Source: Kordia jejudonensis (GTDB lineage: Bacteria; Bacteroidota; Bacteroidia; Flavobacteriales; Flavobacteriaceae). From it: a stretch of 64,000 nt of DNA. Both the position numbers and the translations under genes were made by a program. Numbering within the stretch: position 1 is the first letter of the stretch; each line of letters opens with the position of its first letter. The notes under the pieces were generated by a model. The model was not told where the DNA came from, searched no databases, and saw nothing but the letters and a program-made list of their open reading frames with translations. The DNA is taken from the NCBI RefSeq assembly GCF_001005315.1, contig NZ_LBMG01000032.1:1-64000 (forward strand). Reading direction: 5' to 3'. Below, one piece after another: positions 58,991-64,000 of this stretch.

Positions 58991-59022
58991 AAAACCGTAA
59001 CAGTGATTGTTACGGTTTTTTT
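58991..59022 (+). terminator. Intrinsic terminator; overlaps the ZorB-like gene's stop codon
   Basis: A 12-bp stem (58991-59002 with 59007/59008-59018, ACCGTAACA core) and a T8 run on the plus strand end the acyltransferase transcript. The stop and last two codons of the convergent minus-strand MotB-like gene lie inside the stem, so the operon to the right reaches exactly to this terminator. Confidence 0.88.
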
Positions 59023-59771
59023 TGTTTAGTAGCAGCATATTCAATTTTAGGAATAATTTGAATCGAAAAGCGTTTATTGTTTTCTTCATTTTCATCTCTA
59101 CAAAGACCATTAAAACCGCTTCCGCAGATGAGTATTTCTGCATTATATACTCTTAGATCGATATTATTGGAATTCCAAAGATTATATACAGCTAAAGCTC
59201 TGTCATAACTTTTCCTATATCCATAGCGATCATCTTTGTTACGTTTTTGATCCCAAGTATTAGCCATATTTCCTTCAATGATGACTAAGTATGAAAAGTT
59301 TTCATTTAAAGTGTTTAAGTCTCTTAAAAAACCTTTTAATTTTCTACCAACTTCTAAGGTTGCACTTCGATATTGATATTTGATTTTATCTTCATTTGGT
59401 TCAAAGATTTCAATACTACTTAGTTTTTTAGATACGTATTTTTTGCATTTTTTTAAGTATTTGAAATCCTCATCTTCTTGTAAAGGTTTAAATTGTTGCT
59501 CTAGTTTTAATACTTGATTTAGTTTTTCTAACTCAACACGTAGTTTTTCTTTTTCATTTTCTAGAGTATCAGCTAAAGCGATGTATTCTTCATTTTTTTG
59601 CTCTAATTCTTTAGAAATTTCAAAATAGTTTTCATTTTTTGCTTCTAATTCTTTTTGTTCTTTTCTTAGCATTACATATGTAACCACATACAAAACCAAT
59701 ACGACAAAGAATAGGCTTGTCATTAAATCTGCGAAACTTACCCAAAAGAGGTTTTTATTGGATTTCTTCAT
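59010..59771 (-). CDS. MotB/ZorB-like OmpA-domain protein
   Basis: A 253-residue inner-membrane protein. The N-terminal helix (WVSFADLMTSLFFVVLVLYVV, about 10-30) carries the conserved aspartate (D15) of MotB/ZorB proton channels. A long coiled coil (about 35-95, many E and K) and a C-terminal OmpA-like domain (about 125-250, VIIEGNMANTWDQKR, YRKSYDRALAVYNLW and CRDENEENNKRFSIQI) follow. The OmpA part would bind peptidoglycan as the stator anchor. It is the last gene of a tightly packed operon and overlaps the upstream gene by 17 bp. Flagellar motility is unlikely: no flagellar genes are near and the partner MotA has a very long cytoplasmic tail, as in Zorya. Confidence 0.85.
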   Translation of the reverse strand: MKKSNKNLFWVSFADLMTSLFFVVLVLYVVTYVMLRKEQKELEAKNENYFEISKELEQKNEEYIALADTLENEKEKLRVELEKLNQVLKLEQQFKPLQEDEDFKYLKKCKKYVSKKLSSIEIFEPNEDKIKYQYRSATLEVGRKLKGFLRDLNTLNENFSYLVIIEGNMANTWDQKRNKDDRYGYRKSYDRALAVYNLWNSNNIDLRVYNAEILICGSGFNGLCRDENEENNKRFSIQIIPKIEYAATKQKKP

Positions 59772-61452
59772 TTTTGAGTTTATGTATATTAAAAATTATA
59801 AAATATAATATTGGTGTTAATACCAGTGTAGTAATAATGTACAACCAAAAATGATCAAACTGACAAAACTTTAATATAATACTAGAAAAATTTGTAAGGT
59901 ATTTGTATATGATGTAAACCGTAGTAAGACCAACCAAAAGAGCAATTATTATAGTTATATTACGAGTTATCTTACTCCATTCTTTATAGAAATAATATAT
60001 TAAATTACAATATATTATCAAACCTGAAATAAAAAGAAAAAGGCTGAAAGAAATTATAATTTCACAGTTAATTTCAGAAATTACCTTCACTATGGTCACA
60101 GGTATTTTATTTATAGTAGTTGAACCTAATTTAAAAATATCTATATAAAAATCGGGATTAATTTCATCCTTTGATAAAGTCATAAAAATCTCATCATCAT
60201 TTATGAAGTAAAAATTTTTTATAAATGATTTTTCCAAATTACCACTCTTAGAGTTTTTATAAGAAATATTTTCTGAAATTATTTTTGAATCTGATCCAAT
60301 GAGAATTTTTTCGTTTGGATAATGGTTGTTGAATCGCTTCAAACCTAGACAGCTTATATATTTACCATCATTAATTTCGTAAAGTTTTAAGCAAAAATCT
60401 TTTATGATACGCTGATTAGCAATGTTTTTTAAAATATGATTACTGATGACTAAGCCATTACCATAGTCTGAATGATTGTAAAACTTATATCCATTAATTT
60501 GAAAAAAATCATAATCTAACTGATTCTTTAATAATTCAATGTGATCATTACTTTTGTTTTCTTTGAATCGATCTACAGGAAATCTTATTAGTATCAATTG
60601 ATTAATTTTCTCTATTCCAATCAAACTATTTTCAATATCTTCAAAATCGTTATCAGTTTTTTCATTGTACTCATGGTTGAAATCACTTATAATTATTAAT
60701 GTTTTTTGCGTGTTATCTCTTTCAATCAAACGATTTTCTGATATTTTCCTGTAGATATTAAAAAAGTTAGAATTGATATCTAATTTACCATTTATAAAAT
60801 CTTCATTTCGTTTCCTCAAAATTTCTATACATGATATAAACTTTTCATTATTCATGTCTAGATTATCAATATTTTTATGAATTTGAGCCCAAGAGTCATC
60901 TCCCATGTATATCATAATGTCAACATCAAGATTATCACTTTGTTGATTTAAGTATTTTAATAATATATATAATGAAATGAAATCTTCTGCTGCCAAATTT
61001 AAATAGTCAAGATCTTTATCATGTTTTTTTTCTTCATTGATAATTTTGATTAGTTCTTTATTCGTTTCTTTCTGTTTAATCAAATTCGTTTTTAATAGGC
61101 TAGTTTTGTCTAATAGAATTATTATACTTCTGTCGATGCTGTCGTTATGTTTCATAATATTTGTCAGATCGATTTCATTCTTTGGTAATACATTATTGTT
61201 AATCTCATAATGTTCTGCTACAGTTTTTAAGAAAAGAGACGGTTCAGAAAAATATTCATAGTCTAAGTTATTAGTTAGTGTTCCGCTGAACAATAATGGT
61301 AACATAACTCTTAGAATACTAGCGAGTAGAAAAGTAGCACAGACTTTACCTAGTTTATCTTTAATAAAAGGTCTTATAAATTCTTTTTCAAAAATCAAAA
61401 GATAAATTAATAATACTGTAAAGGATAATATGAGAACTATAAACTTAGACAT
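59755..61452 (-). CDS. Multi-pass membrane protein with vWA-like domain
   Basis: A 565-residue protein between the motor genes. Two N-terminal helices (FIVLILSFTVLLIYLLIF and FLLASILRVMLPLLFSG) are followed by a large soluble region (about 60-440) with a von-Willebrand-A-like pattern: SIIILLDKTSLLKT as a degenerate metal-site strand, DIMIYMGDDSWAQ, and KTLIIISDFNHEY as the fourth strand. Three more helices lie at the C-terminus (SLFLFISGLIIYCNLI, ITIIIALLVGLTTVYII and WLYIITTLVLTPILYFII). The start is the ATG at 61452, overlapping the channel gene by 8 bp; the frame to 61494 lies inside that gene. I do not know a named family with this arrangement. It replaces the ZorC or ZorD seen in type I/II Zorya. 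Confidence 0.7.
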   Translation of the reverse strand: MSKFIVLILSFTVLLIYLLIFEKEFIRPFIKDKLGKVCATFLLASILRVMLPLLFSGTLTNNLDYEYFSEPSLFLKTVAEHYEINNNVLPKNEIDLTNIMKHNDSIDRSIIILLDKTSLLKTNLIKQKETNKELIKIINEEKKHDKDLDYLNLAAEDFISLYILLKYLNQQSDNLDVDIMIYMGDDSWAQIHKNIDNLDMNNEKFISCIEILRKRNEDFINGKLDINSNFFNIYRKISENRLIERDNTQKTLIIISDFNHEYNEKTDNDFEDIENSLIGIEKINQLILIRFPVDRFKENKSNDHIELLKNQLDYDFFQINGYKFYNHSDYGNGLVISNHILKNIANQRIIKDFCLKLYEINDGKYISCLGLKRFNNHYPNEKILIGSDSKIISENISYKNSKSGNLEKSFIKNFYFINDDEIFMTLSKDEINPDFYIDIFKLGSTTINKIPVTIVKVISEINCEIIISFSLFLFISGLIIYCNLIYYFYKEWSKITRNITIIIALLVGLTTVYIIYKYLTNFSSIILKFCQFDHFWLYIITTLVLTPILYFIIFNIHKLKNEEIQ

Positions 61453-62926
61453 TATTCTTTTTTGTAATCCACTTCCATGATCGTTTCCAAACACTTTGTT
61501 TAGCTAAACGATTGGTAGTTTTTATTTCTCCTAAAATAGCTTCCAAAACTTTCTCATTTCGTTCAAGTTTAGAAGACACTTCTTTTTTTAACTCATCAGA
61601 TTTTTGAGTTAAATCATTTAACAATGACAGGTTAGCCAATTGACTTCTGTTATCTTCAAATGTTTTCACCATCAAATCTTCTTCACGAATCGTCACTTCT
61701 TTGATGGCTTTAATTTTTATTGCTGTATGCTCACGAAGTTCATCCAAAGACTTTATCATAATGTCATCTACATTTTTAACTGTATCTGTAATTAATACAC
61801 CTCTTTCATGTAAAACTTCAAAATGACTTTTTAAGAATTCTAATAAGCCATTATTCAGTGCTACACGTTCATCTAATTTTTCGGCAATTCCTTTGAAATT
61901 GTCTGTTTTCTCTAGTAATGCCATGAAATAGCCTGAAAGTTTTGTTGTACCAACCACAGAAGAATTAAGGATTTGAATGTATTCGTTGAACTTAGATAAA
62001 TCTTTAGTGGTTTCTGTTAGCTTATTCAGAATGGTTATATTGGCTTTGGCAAAAGAAGTAATGTCAATATTTTCGAGGTTTTGTAAAATTTGACCTTGCA
62101 TTTCAATCGCATCATAATTCTTATGAAGTAGCCCTGAGAGTCTATCAATGTTTATAGTGAAATCTTCATTAAATTTCATCAAATTTGAGTTAAAAGCATA
62201 AAACCCTGAGGATTCGCTCAAACTTAAAACAGGAAGTAATTCTGTTTGTACAAACGTGTAAAAATCATTCTTTCCATCTTCTACAACTCTACTCGCACTT
62301 TTATATCTAAAATTAGAGTTTAGTACAGTCCAAAACAGGCCATAGACACTAGCAAACATTGCAATAGAAACGCCAACTAAGAAACCTTGTATTTCAAAAT
62401 CGTTTCCGTTATTAGAAGCTATAATAAAGTTAATGAGTCCAAAAATAATCCCTAATATGGTTCCCATTAAACCTAAATAAAGAGGCGTTGTAATTGTTTG
62501 ATTGATTTCCTCTTCTTCCATGTCAATGTTACGCTCTGTAATGTCTTTAATTAGGTTGAAGTCTGTTGTAGCACCTTTATTTTTTAAAAGGTATACATTA
62601 ATTGCAATGAGGATTTTATTGAAAATTGGAGATATTTTGTTTTTTACTTCAATTAAACTGATGATGTTTTCTTTGAAATATTCATCAGTTGAATCTTCTA
62701 CATAAGAATTGAGTTCGCCCAAAATTGTCGAAGGAGAATTTTTTTGTAAATACTCAGCAGATATATTAAACTTTTTTATTTGAAAAAATCCTTGCTTTGG
62801 TACAATCGCTTTTAACTGTTTTATTTTTTTAGTAGCTTTTAACGCACGAATTGTTTGCATTATGATAATAGCAATAATCATAATGATTTCAAAAAAAGTA
62901 AAAATGTTCATGTAATGATTACTCAT
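61445..62926 (-). CDS. MotA/ZorA-like proton channel with long cytoplasmic tail
   Basis: A 493-residue membrane protein. One helix at the N-terminus (FFEIIMIIAIIIMQTI, about 10-26) and two in the middle (LYLGLMGTILGIIFGLINFII and FLVGVSIAMFASVYGLFWTVL, about 147-203) give the MotA/TolQ/ExbB core, with the glycine-rich GLMGTILGI that faces the channel. A coiled-coil tail of about 270 residues follows (many L, E and K; repeated 'IL..L..' heptads), as in ZorA, where the tail transmits motor motion into the cytoplasm. It overlaps the coiled-coil gene upstream by 8 bp and the vWA-like gene downstream by 8 bp. The partner is the ZorB-like protein two genes later. Confidence 0.85.
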   Translation of the reverse strand: MSNHYMNIFTFFEIIMIIAIIIMQTIRALKATKKIKQLKAIVPKQGFFQIKKFNISAEYLQKNSPSTILGELNSYVEDSTDEYFKENIISLIEVKNKISPIFNKILIAINVYLLKNKGATTDFNLIKDITERNIDMEEEEINQTITTPLYLGLMGTILGIIFGLINFIIASNNGNDFEIQGFLVGVSIAMFASVYGLFWTVLNSNFRYKSASRVVEDGKNDFYTFVQTELLPVLSLSESSGFYAFNSNLMKFNEDFTINIDRLSGLLHKNYDAIEMQGQILQNLENIDITSFAKANITILNKLTETTKDLSKFNEYIQILNSSVVGTTKLSGYFMALLEKTDNFKGIAEKLDERVALNNGLLEFLKSHFEVLHERGVLITDTVKNVDDIMIKSLDELREHTAIKIKAIKEVTIREEDLMVKTFEDNRSQLANLSLLNDLTQKSDELKKEVSSKLERNEKVLEAILGEIKTTNRLAKQSVWKRSWKWITKKNNV

Positions 62927-63620
62927 AGCTAATTTCTGCCTTTTTAGTTATTTTCCATTTGTCACCATACTTGACAGCTTCTCCTTGTACAGATGTAATA
63001 ATCTTTTTGGCACGCTGATCCAATTCATCAACAGATTCACAAGCAGGTTCAATGAATTTTTCTGGAGAATCAGTAGCCATCAGGACATTATCTTCGAAAT
63101 TTAAAAATTCAAAAAAGGCATTAGTTTCATCTTCAATAATAAATTTGTAATACTTACCTTTTCTATCCGTTTTTGACATAGAATCCTCCTTAAAAAAACC
63201 GTCAATATCTGGTTTTGAAGCATACACTATTTTCTTTAAAGTATTAGTGTCCTCAATTGATTTTTGTTTATTGGAAATAGCTTTATGAACATTTTTTTTG
63301 GGTTCATGACTATTTTTTACTAATTTACTATCACTAGATACTTTCTCTAGTTCGTCTCCTAAAGTTGCTAAATCACCAGTAATAATTTTTATTGTTTCTT
63401 CAAATTGACTAAACTTCTTGGCATTTTCATTTGATACTGACGAAAGTTTATTTTTAAGTTCTTCAATTTCTTTTTTTAATTCATCATGATTTAAATTTCC
63501 CATAATATTCTTGTCAGTATTAGATGAAAATGATAACTCACCATCTGAATGCTCAATTTTTTTTTCGAGCTTATCAAGCTGATCCCTAATGGTATTAAGT
63601 ACTGATAACATTTCTTGCAT
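62919..63620 (-). CDS. Coiled-coil protein of the motor operon, unknown function
   Basis: A 233-residue soluble protein. Residues about 1-95 form a long coiled coil (LNTIRDQLDKLEKKIEH; LKKEIEELKNKLSSVSNENAKKF). The middle (about 95-140) is basic and disordered. The C-terminal domain (about 145-230, YYKFIIEDETNAFFEFLNF and ACESVDELDQRAKKIIT) looks like a small alpha/beta fold. I recognise no family and no GrpE, nuclease or ATPase motif. It is the second visible gene of the operon and overlaps the channel gene by 8 bp, so it is probably a cytoplasmic partner of the ZorA-like tail. Confidence 0.7.
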   Translation of the reverse strand: MQEMLSVLNTIRDQLDKLEKKIEHSDGELSFSSNTDKNIMGNLNHDELKKEIEELKNKLSSVSNENAKKFSQFEETIKIITGDLATLGDELEKVSSDSKLVKNSHEPKKNVHKAISNKQKSIEDTNTLKKIVYASKPDIDGFFKEDSMSKTDRKGKYYKFIIEDETNAFFEFLNFEDNVLMATDSPEKFIEPACESVDELDQRAKKIITSVQGEAVKYGDKWKITKKAEISYE

Positions 63621-63626
63621 ACCTAA

Positions 63627-64000
63627 TTAATTTTTAGAGTTAGCAATAATTTTATACGCCAAATTGTTTAATGAACCTACCAACGGATAAAAGAATAATG
63701 TTTCTTCTATTTTAATTCCTGTATCCCCATATAAAGAAGCTTTTTTTCTCTTGATTCCTTCATTCAAATATTTTCGAATATCTCTAGTCAAAGTATCTTT
63801 ATACATGTCAAAATGTCTTGGGTTGATACCAAAATAATTTTTGAAGTTTATTTTTTCATGCAATGAAAACAATAGTTCAATGAATTTTTCATGCTCTTGT
63901 TCGATACTTTGTACTAAAGTTTCTTCATTACCTAAAGTATTATAGGTTATGTTACTTTCAGAAGAAATAGAGTCATTCAAATCACCAATAAGTACACTTT
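63627..64000 (-). CDS. Unknown protein, 5' end outside the window
   Basis: The minus-strand frame is open from the window edge to the stop at 63627; no convincing start codon is seen in it, only a TTG at 63980, so the gene is taken to begin beyond 64000. The visible C-terminal part, more than 120 residues, is polar and charged, with YFGINPRHFDMYKDTLTRD and YLNEGIKRKKASLYGDTGIK and a final NLAYKIIANSKN. No motif is recognised. It is 6 nt from the coiled-coil gene and belongs to the same operon, whose first genes must be looked for past the right edge. Confidence 0.65.
   Translation of the reverse strand, partial: SVLIGDLNDSISSESNITYNTLGNEETLVQSIEQEHEKFIELLFSLHEKINFKNYFGINPRHFDMYKDTLTRDIRKYLNEGIKRKKASLYGDTGIKIEETLFFYPLVGSLNNLAYKIIANSKN

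Follow-up and report, generated by a model that had tools for sequence, protein, structure and literature searches.

Three kinds of described bacterial system come closest to the operon reported here, which straddles the end of a 64,000-nucleotide stretch of Kordia jejudonensis DNA (RefSeq assembly GCF_001005315.1, contig NZ_LBMG01000032.1, positions 1 to 64,000 of the forward strand; hereafter the window). Zorya anti-phage systems, as far as the available text of PMC11890865 describes them, have a ZorA-type channel with a long cytoplasmic tail and a ZorB-type anchor with a channel Asp and an OmpA-like domain. FtsZl1 loci (Makarova and Koonin 2010, PMC2875224, main text) are named for a type protein of 1051 amino acids (aa) with a coiled coil and a helical C-terminal domain, and often carry a GTPase and kinases. 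DO-GTPase/GAP1-N2 conflict systems are built on DO-GTPase and GAP1, according to the accessible part of Kaur et al. (2020, PMC7159879). The operon of K. jejudonensis has eight minus-strand genes that run from 59010 to ~70552 in window numbering, when the contig is read past the window end, and its products include a ZorAB-type motor, an actin relative and a tubulin relative. To our knowledge, no described bacterial system combines in a single unit the genes for an ion-driven rotary motor, an actin-family protein and a tubulin-family protein, and we found no description of this combination in the open-access literature, a body of text that leaves out subscription papers and most preprints. We consider it quite possible, if somewhat short of evenly balanced, that the operon represents a new class of machine, in which a peptidoglycan-anchored motor would be coupled through its cytoplasmic tail to actin and tubulin relatives, with a vWA sensor in the envelope and exchangeable secreted nucleases or proteases as outputs, and whose core would run without a motor elsewhere.

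In order of transcription the genes encode VWA, a probable vWA-type lipoprotein (501 aa; 69047-70552); TM, a three-helix membrane protein (137 aa; 68628-69041); TUB, a tubulin-like protein (504 aa; 67094-68608); ACT, an actin/Hsp70-superfamily protein (1154 aa; 63627..67091); a coiled-coil protein (233 aa; 62919..63620); ZORA, a channel subunit of the MotA/ExbB type with a long cytoplasmic tail (493 aa; 61445..62926); a transmembrane protein with vWA-like motifs (59755..61452; 565 aa from the ATG at 61452, or 579 aa from a GTG at 61494); and ZORB, a ZorB/MotB-like subunit (253 aa; 59010..59771). Neighbouring genes are spaced by -17 to +19 bp. The contig is 78.2 kb long and the window, its bases 1-64000, cuts through the operon, so that VWA, TM and TUB lie outside it and only the C-terminal part of ACT (63627..64000) lies inside, as an open reading frame (ORF) left open at the window end (63627-63998, minus strand). 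The original prediction, made from the letters of the window, had described this ORF as a partial unknown, the first of at least five packed minus-strand genes with overlaps of 8, 8 and 17 bp in an AT-richer region. The ORF coordinates bear out this arrangement, and the GC content, 31-39% in the 9 kb that precede the operon, is 24-31% within it. Chance ORFs were ruled out because the operon genes are conserved across loci.

Both motor subunits are of the ZorAB type by profile comparison and nearest to the solved Zorya motors. ZORA has three hydrophobic helices followed by a tail of about 270-290 residues, in agreement with the MotA/TolQ-like channel and ~270-residue tail read by eye beforehand, and it barely reaches the Pfam MotA_ExbB cutoff (23.0 vs 22.9 bits). 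The best match of its profile among solved chains was type I ZorA (8VVN, 1.8e-5), compared to 0.028 for TolQ; an NCBIfam exbB2 match of 8e-4 lay below cutoff. ZORB has one hydrophobic helix with a channel Asp, D15, that is invariant in 33 aligned rows, and an OmpA-like C-terminal half (profile matches to MotB, MotY and OmpA chains), as expected of the MotB/OmpA protein with the channel aspartate that had been predicted. The profile of the 33 ZORB sequences matched type I ZorB (8VVN) at 1.2e-15, 8QYD at 3.9e-8 and then MotB at 9.2e-6; we take 8QYD, whose sole label is "Membrane protein", to be a ZorB. The predicted likeness to ZorA and ZorB was thus upheld by the profiles, with the reservation that the PADLOC ZorA models gave no match to ZORA. 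PADLOC ZorB1 matched ZORB at 1.5e-11, and a PADLOC ZorB model also matched in 3 of 14 control genomes. Moreover, a second MotB/OmpA-like protein in the same genome (G000:C138:80974-81372) scored better than ZORB against a PADLOC ZorB model (1.3e-12 vs 9.3e-7); the PADLOC ZorB models are therefore not specific.

The four genes transcribed first encode the main partners of this motor. ACT is, on structure modelling, an actin/Hsp70-superfamily protein with an actin-fold ATPase domain preceded by a large N-terminal domain. The ACT and VWA models were made for the relative at locus L037, which is 61.6% identical to the window's proteins over TUB plus ACT; its ACT domain at ~578-1019 matched MamK/MreB, with Hsp70 tied. 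Each of the ACT phosphate-binding motifs was kept in 77 of 80 loci and the TUB motif FGGTG[AS][AS]G in 80 of 80, where motif and lipobox counts are crude pattern matches. TUB has a tubulin-superfamily nucleotide-binding domain, as identified from Pfam and motifs. With matches accepted at E up to 0.1, Pfam Tubulin matched 15 of 15 family members (best 2.9e-8) and Tubulin_2 matched 14 of 15 (best 4.1e-10), while the window's own TUB scored below both Pfam cutoffs; the one chain obtained in a PDB profile search was of tubulin/FtsZ type and had an E of 0.1. The 15 aligned proteins measure 469-505 aa. The VWA lipoprotein gave nothing in a PDB profile search and a single vWA-type Pfam match (0.068) among 44 members, and its tentative assignment as vWA-type comes from the model of the L037 relative.

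The original prediction had named as partners of the motor the coiled-coil protein and a multi-pass protein with vWA-like strands. The first of these held up: its family occurs in 73 of the 83 non-redundant loci described below, mostly adjoining ACT, and its relatives are usually longer than 233 aa; the window's protein itself gave weak coiled-coil matches only (Pfam, PADLOC, NCBIfam). The second has five hydrophobic helices, as anticipated, and its vWA-like character consists of short motifs common to it and two relatives, which were found at the same position in L037 and L039. Profile comparison with the operon's VWA family failed to support a vWA assignment (probability 0.9%), and the 565-aa protein had no match in Pfam, PADLOC or NCBIfam. 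When the 579-aa version was used as query among 149 genomes, it returned its own locus and one weak partial match only. Seen only in the window and in these two relatives, this protein is a lineage-limited part and no core partner, and the main partners lie mostly outside the window.

The core VWA-TM-TUB-ACT is syntenic and the motor is optional. A contig scan with the TUB alignment found at least 535 relatives among at least 598 pattern matches; the best-scoring 80 loci were kept, so that counts on them are biased toward near relatives. The window's ZORA alone, used as query in the genome contig search, found no relatives. Synteny was counted on 83 non-redundant loci with a long ACT, 75 with enough upstream and 65 with enough downstream sequence. 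VWA, TM and TUB all lay upstream of ACT in 68/75 loci; downstream, 45/65 loci had both ZORA and ZORB, 4/65 had ZORA only and 16/65 had neither. Joint conservation of the genes, which the original prediction had made a check, was thus seen for the main partners and not for the 565-aa protein. Among 395 genomes drawn evenly from the class, 16 had ACT, the window's own included; of the 15 other loci 14 were untruncated, and 9 of these 14 had ZORA and ZORB. A draw from the phylum gave TUB in 13/395 genomes, three of these weak.

We think it unlikely that the locus holds two independent modules, a ZorAB pair and a VWA-TM-TUB-ACT system, that are kept together by common mobility and have no mechanism in common. 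The motor label needs at least seven changes on the core tree (like the motor tree, built by a quick method with SH-aLRT support only), motorless cores occur in the 16 loci and on a cyanobacterial plasmid, and motor pairs occur without the core, all of which such modules would predict. Against this, the 45 loci, which spread over many families, have the motor genes after the core and in the same orientation, and the overlaps and gaps in the window's operon are at most 19 bp. Among 72,556 plasmid records, five gave an ACT match; one is a Prevotella replicon of 1.77 Mb, and the other four are cyanobacterial and match in part. The Picosynechococcus plasmid (L118 3983-14509) encodes relatives of VWA (3.9e-9), TUB (9.8e-48) and ACT (1.4e-38), has a membrane protein with no profile match in the TM position and gave no ZORA or ZORB match; its core is followed by proteins that, by eye, have a repeated C-terminal domain. 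In a viral contig collection 3 of 115 pattern matches encode relatives, and the IMG/VR contigs L160 and L161, putatively viral, carry VWA-TM-TUB-ACT-ZORA-ZORB in a row. Loci from metagenome-assembled genomes (MAGs) labelled Williamsia, Sulfuricurvum and Acetatifactor (L048, L051, L104) were left out of the evidence for a wide range as possible binning errors; two Leptospiraceae MAGs (L046 and L100) agree at 88%.

Comparison within the genus of the window pointed to a probable exchange of cassettes at a single chromosomal site. Upstream of the operon lie a DUF4440/DUF3471 gene and a DUF4856 gene, and downstream a conserved gene on the opposite strand, which we take to be an aminotransferase-type enzyme; an ORF further upstream, past the flank genes kept by operon-free congeners, is presumably TonB-receptor-like. 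Both flank genes of the site are present in 11/11 genomes of the genus, and the operon fills the site in two of these, with a gap between flank genes of 12.9 kb compared to 0.27-2.55 kb in the other nine (by coordinate subtraction). TUB is present in 3/11 genomes, own included, the third having a motorless version at a different location. Between the two occupied sites the operon proteins are only 28-57% identical, whereas identities among the flank proteins compared are 98% and 97% to one side of the operon and 83%, 64% and 88% to the other. The window's cassette groups on the core tree with L037 (SH-aLRT 98) within a set of four rows (99) that includes another genus, Subsaximicrobium (L038), and excludes the congener's cassette. 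The divergence of the operon against the identity of its flanks, together with this placement, is our reason for proposing exchange. In a further congener (G010) the same site holds another two-gene module (L151 2452-4407), a membrane coiled-coil protein and an OmpA-like-looking protein with one N-terminal helix. These genes gave weak PADLOC ZorA/ZorB matches and none to the operon's ZORA/ZORB profiles, and we did not count them as the same system.

The genes after ZORB often encode enzymes with hydrophobic N-termini. Pfam searches on 148 flank proteins of 61 loci gave 16 retropepsin-like, 13 SNase and 8 trypsin-like proteins. When retropepsin-like, SNase, endonuclease/exonuclease/phosphatase-fold and trypsin-like families were counted, 22 of the 45 motor loci had a same-strand gene for a secreted-type nuclease or protease among the first three after ZORB (14 with a retropepsin-like, 13 with a nuclease and 7 with a trypsin-like gene). 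These accessory families occurred downstream in 40/62 and upstream in 2/86, a contrast that is partly circular, as recurrent neighbours had served as seeds for three of the four families; the Pfam scan of the flank proteins is independent of this. The window's own operon has no secreted nuclease or protease downstream. In the motorless loci L024, L025 and five others, four of them named Spirosoma, a family of ~470-aa proteins lies next; in L024 this protein contains a WG repeat, and the gene before it encodes a lipoprotein that is a clan-AA aspartic protease.

Related motors also occur outside the operon. The ZORB profile matched 20/390 genomes of the class. Eight loci from six genomes of one family (L192, L194-L197 and L200-L202, the last on a 3-kb contig) hold ZORA-ZORB pairs with no VWA, TM, TUB or ACT in the stretch examined, and these pairs nest within the operon's motor clade on the motor tree, which carries a long-branch warning. 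A motor of the same clade at L193 (6520-12599, genome G361) stands in a row of TPR-DarT (PF14487, 8.5e-17), ZORA, two ZORB genes and an ADP-ribosylglycohydrolase (7.6e-44), adjoining DpdF-like and reverse-transcriptase genes. This row is possibly a further ZorAB-type defence operon. The same class also has a genuine type I Zorya, with ZorA, ZorB, ZorC and ZorD by PADLOC, at L199 (3868-12207, genome G297), which sits on a very long branch of the motor tree.

How these parts may work together can be sketched as follows. The eight products would act as one complex, in which the VWA lipoprotein senses a ligand or a disturbance in the envelope and TM relays the signal to TUB and ACT, which would switch or assemble on nucleotide. 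The ACT/TUB assembly would be coupled to the long cytoplasmic tail of ZORA and would gate the rotation of the motor or be driven by it. At the many loci that have them, secreted nucleases or proteases would be the output outside the inner membrane. Our tentative proposal, to which we give nearly an even chance, is that the operon encodes an envelope-spanning machine that guards the envelope in conflicts with phages or other invaders and that may have become a stable component of the cell in some lineages. Counted in its favour are the Zorya motors as nearest relatives, core synteny, kept nucleotide motifs, exchange at the site, the downstream nucleases and proteases and the DarT-linked motor. 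A defence role is plausible on these grounds.

Several observations weigh against such a guard function. TUB is present in 81/81 and 36/36 sampled genomes of two other genera, which the named loci on the core tree lead us to identify as Hymenobacter and Spirosoma (in a few Hymenobacter genomes the TUB match is split); presence of this kind is unlike that of typical defence genes and speaks against a purely defensive reading. Recurrent neighbour genes are common to the Hymenobacter loci and to the Spirosoma loci, which suggests vertical inheritance within each set. PADLOC on the 148 flank proteins mostly found the downstream enzymes again, with few canonical defence genes among the 25 families listed of 42 matched, and the motor is missing from the 16 motorless loci. 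Reading on past 64000, where the original prediction had suggested looking for nuclease, helicase or NTPase genes, did yield ACT, TUB, TM and VWA, but no cytosolic nuclease or helicase was recognised among the eight operon genes.

Much of this would suit a machine of the same composition with a physiological job, such as envelope maintenance, surface-protein handling, export or cell organisation, that is core in some lineages, accessory elsewhere and has no specific defence role. We regard this as possible and somewhat doubtful. Besides the universal presence in two genera, their shared neighbours and the few defence neighbours, it gains from the 90 of 291 genomes of their order that have TUB (about ten weak) and from the ordinary surroundings of the coreless motor pairs. 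It is less readily reconciled with the 3/11 occurrence in the window's genus and the exchange of cassettes at one site, with secreted nucleases after the motor, with Zorya motors as the nearest relatives, or with a motor of the same clade beside DarT in a defence-type neighbourhood. If the parts act together, the operon would make it possible to study how force or a signal is transmitted to the cytosol from a ZorAB-type motor, and the origin of such motors, as defence devices or as envelope machinery, would become testable. The presence of the operon in every sampled genome of two genera opens it to ordinary genetics.

Zorya, FtsZl1 loci and DO-GTPase systems each have a defining feature that was looked for here and not found, and for this reason the operon is assigned to none of the three. 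MotAB, TolQR and ExbBD belong with its motor to one superfamily of ion-driven inner-membrane motors, and differ in that their profile matches are weaker than those of ZorAB. Flagellar, gliding or Tol-Exb genes, which the original prediction had held would tell against a Zorya-like system, were not recognised in the operon flanks, where part of the flanking ORFs was searched. DO-GTPase/GAP1-N2 neighbourhoods likewise pair tubulin-domain with vWA proteins, or occur with HSP70, and the accessible part of the text (PMC7159879) has no match for MotB; neither DO-GTPase nor GAP1 was among the Pfam families matched at E up to 1 by the eight operon proteins (for the 233-aa protein, among 25 of 31 weak matches listed).

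FtsZl1 loci resemble the operon in that a tubulin-superfamily protein is encoded together with vWA proteins and, in the FtsZl1 loci of several genomes, with OmpA-domain proteins (PMC2875224, main text). These likenesses would fit machinery for membrane remodelling or vesicle formation of the sort suggested for FtsZl1 loci, supplemented here by a motor, a reading that we consider very unlikely. TUB, at ~500 aa, is about half the length of the FtsZl1 type protein with its coiled coil and helical C-terminal domain, and the operon adds an actin/Hsp70-type protein and a ZorAB motor, where neither "MotA" nor "Hsp70" appears in the main text of PMC2875224. A P-loop GTPase or protein kinase, frequent though not universal in FtsZl1 loci, had no Pfam match among the eight operon proteins, and the neighbour families listed with at least five loci include no GTPase or kinase beyond response regulators. 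As the original prediction had noted for ZorC, ZorD and ZorE in the visible part, PADLOC found no ZorC-G in any of the eight proteins, with a library that does detect ZorC and ZorD in L199, and the operon is therefore not filed as Zorya. It has the two Zorya motor components as far as sequence can tell, ZORA as a MotA/ExbB channel with a long cytoplasmic tail and ZORB as an anchor with a single transmembrane helix, the channel Asp and an OmpA-like domain predicted to bind peptidoglycan. To these, compared with Zorya as described in the available text of PMC11890865, it adds VWA, TM, TUB, ACT and a coiled-coil protein, and its motor is optional.

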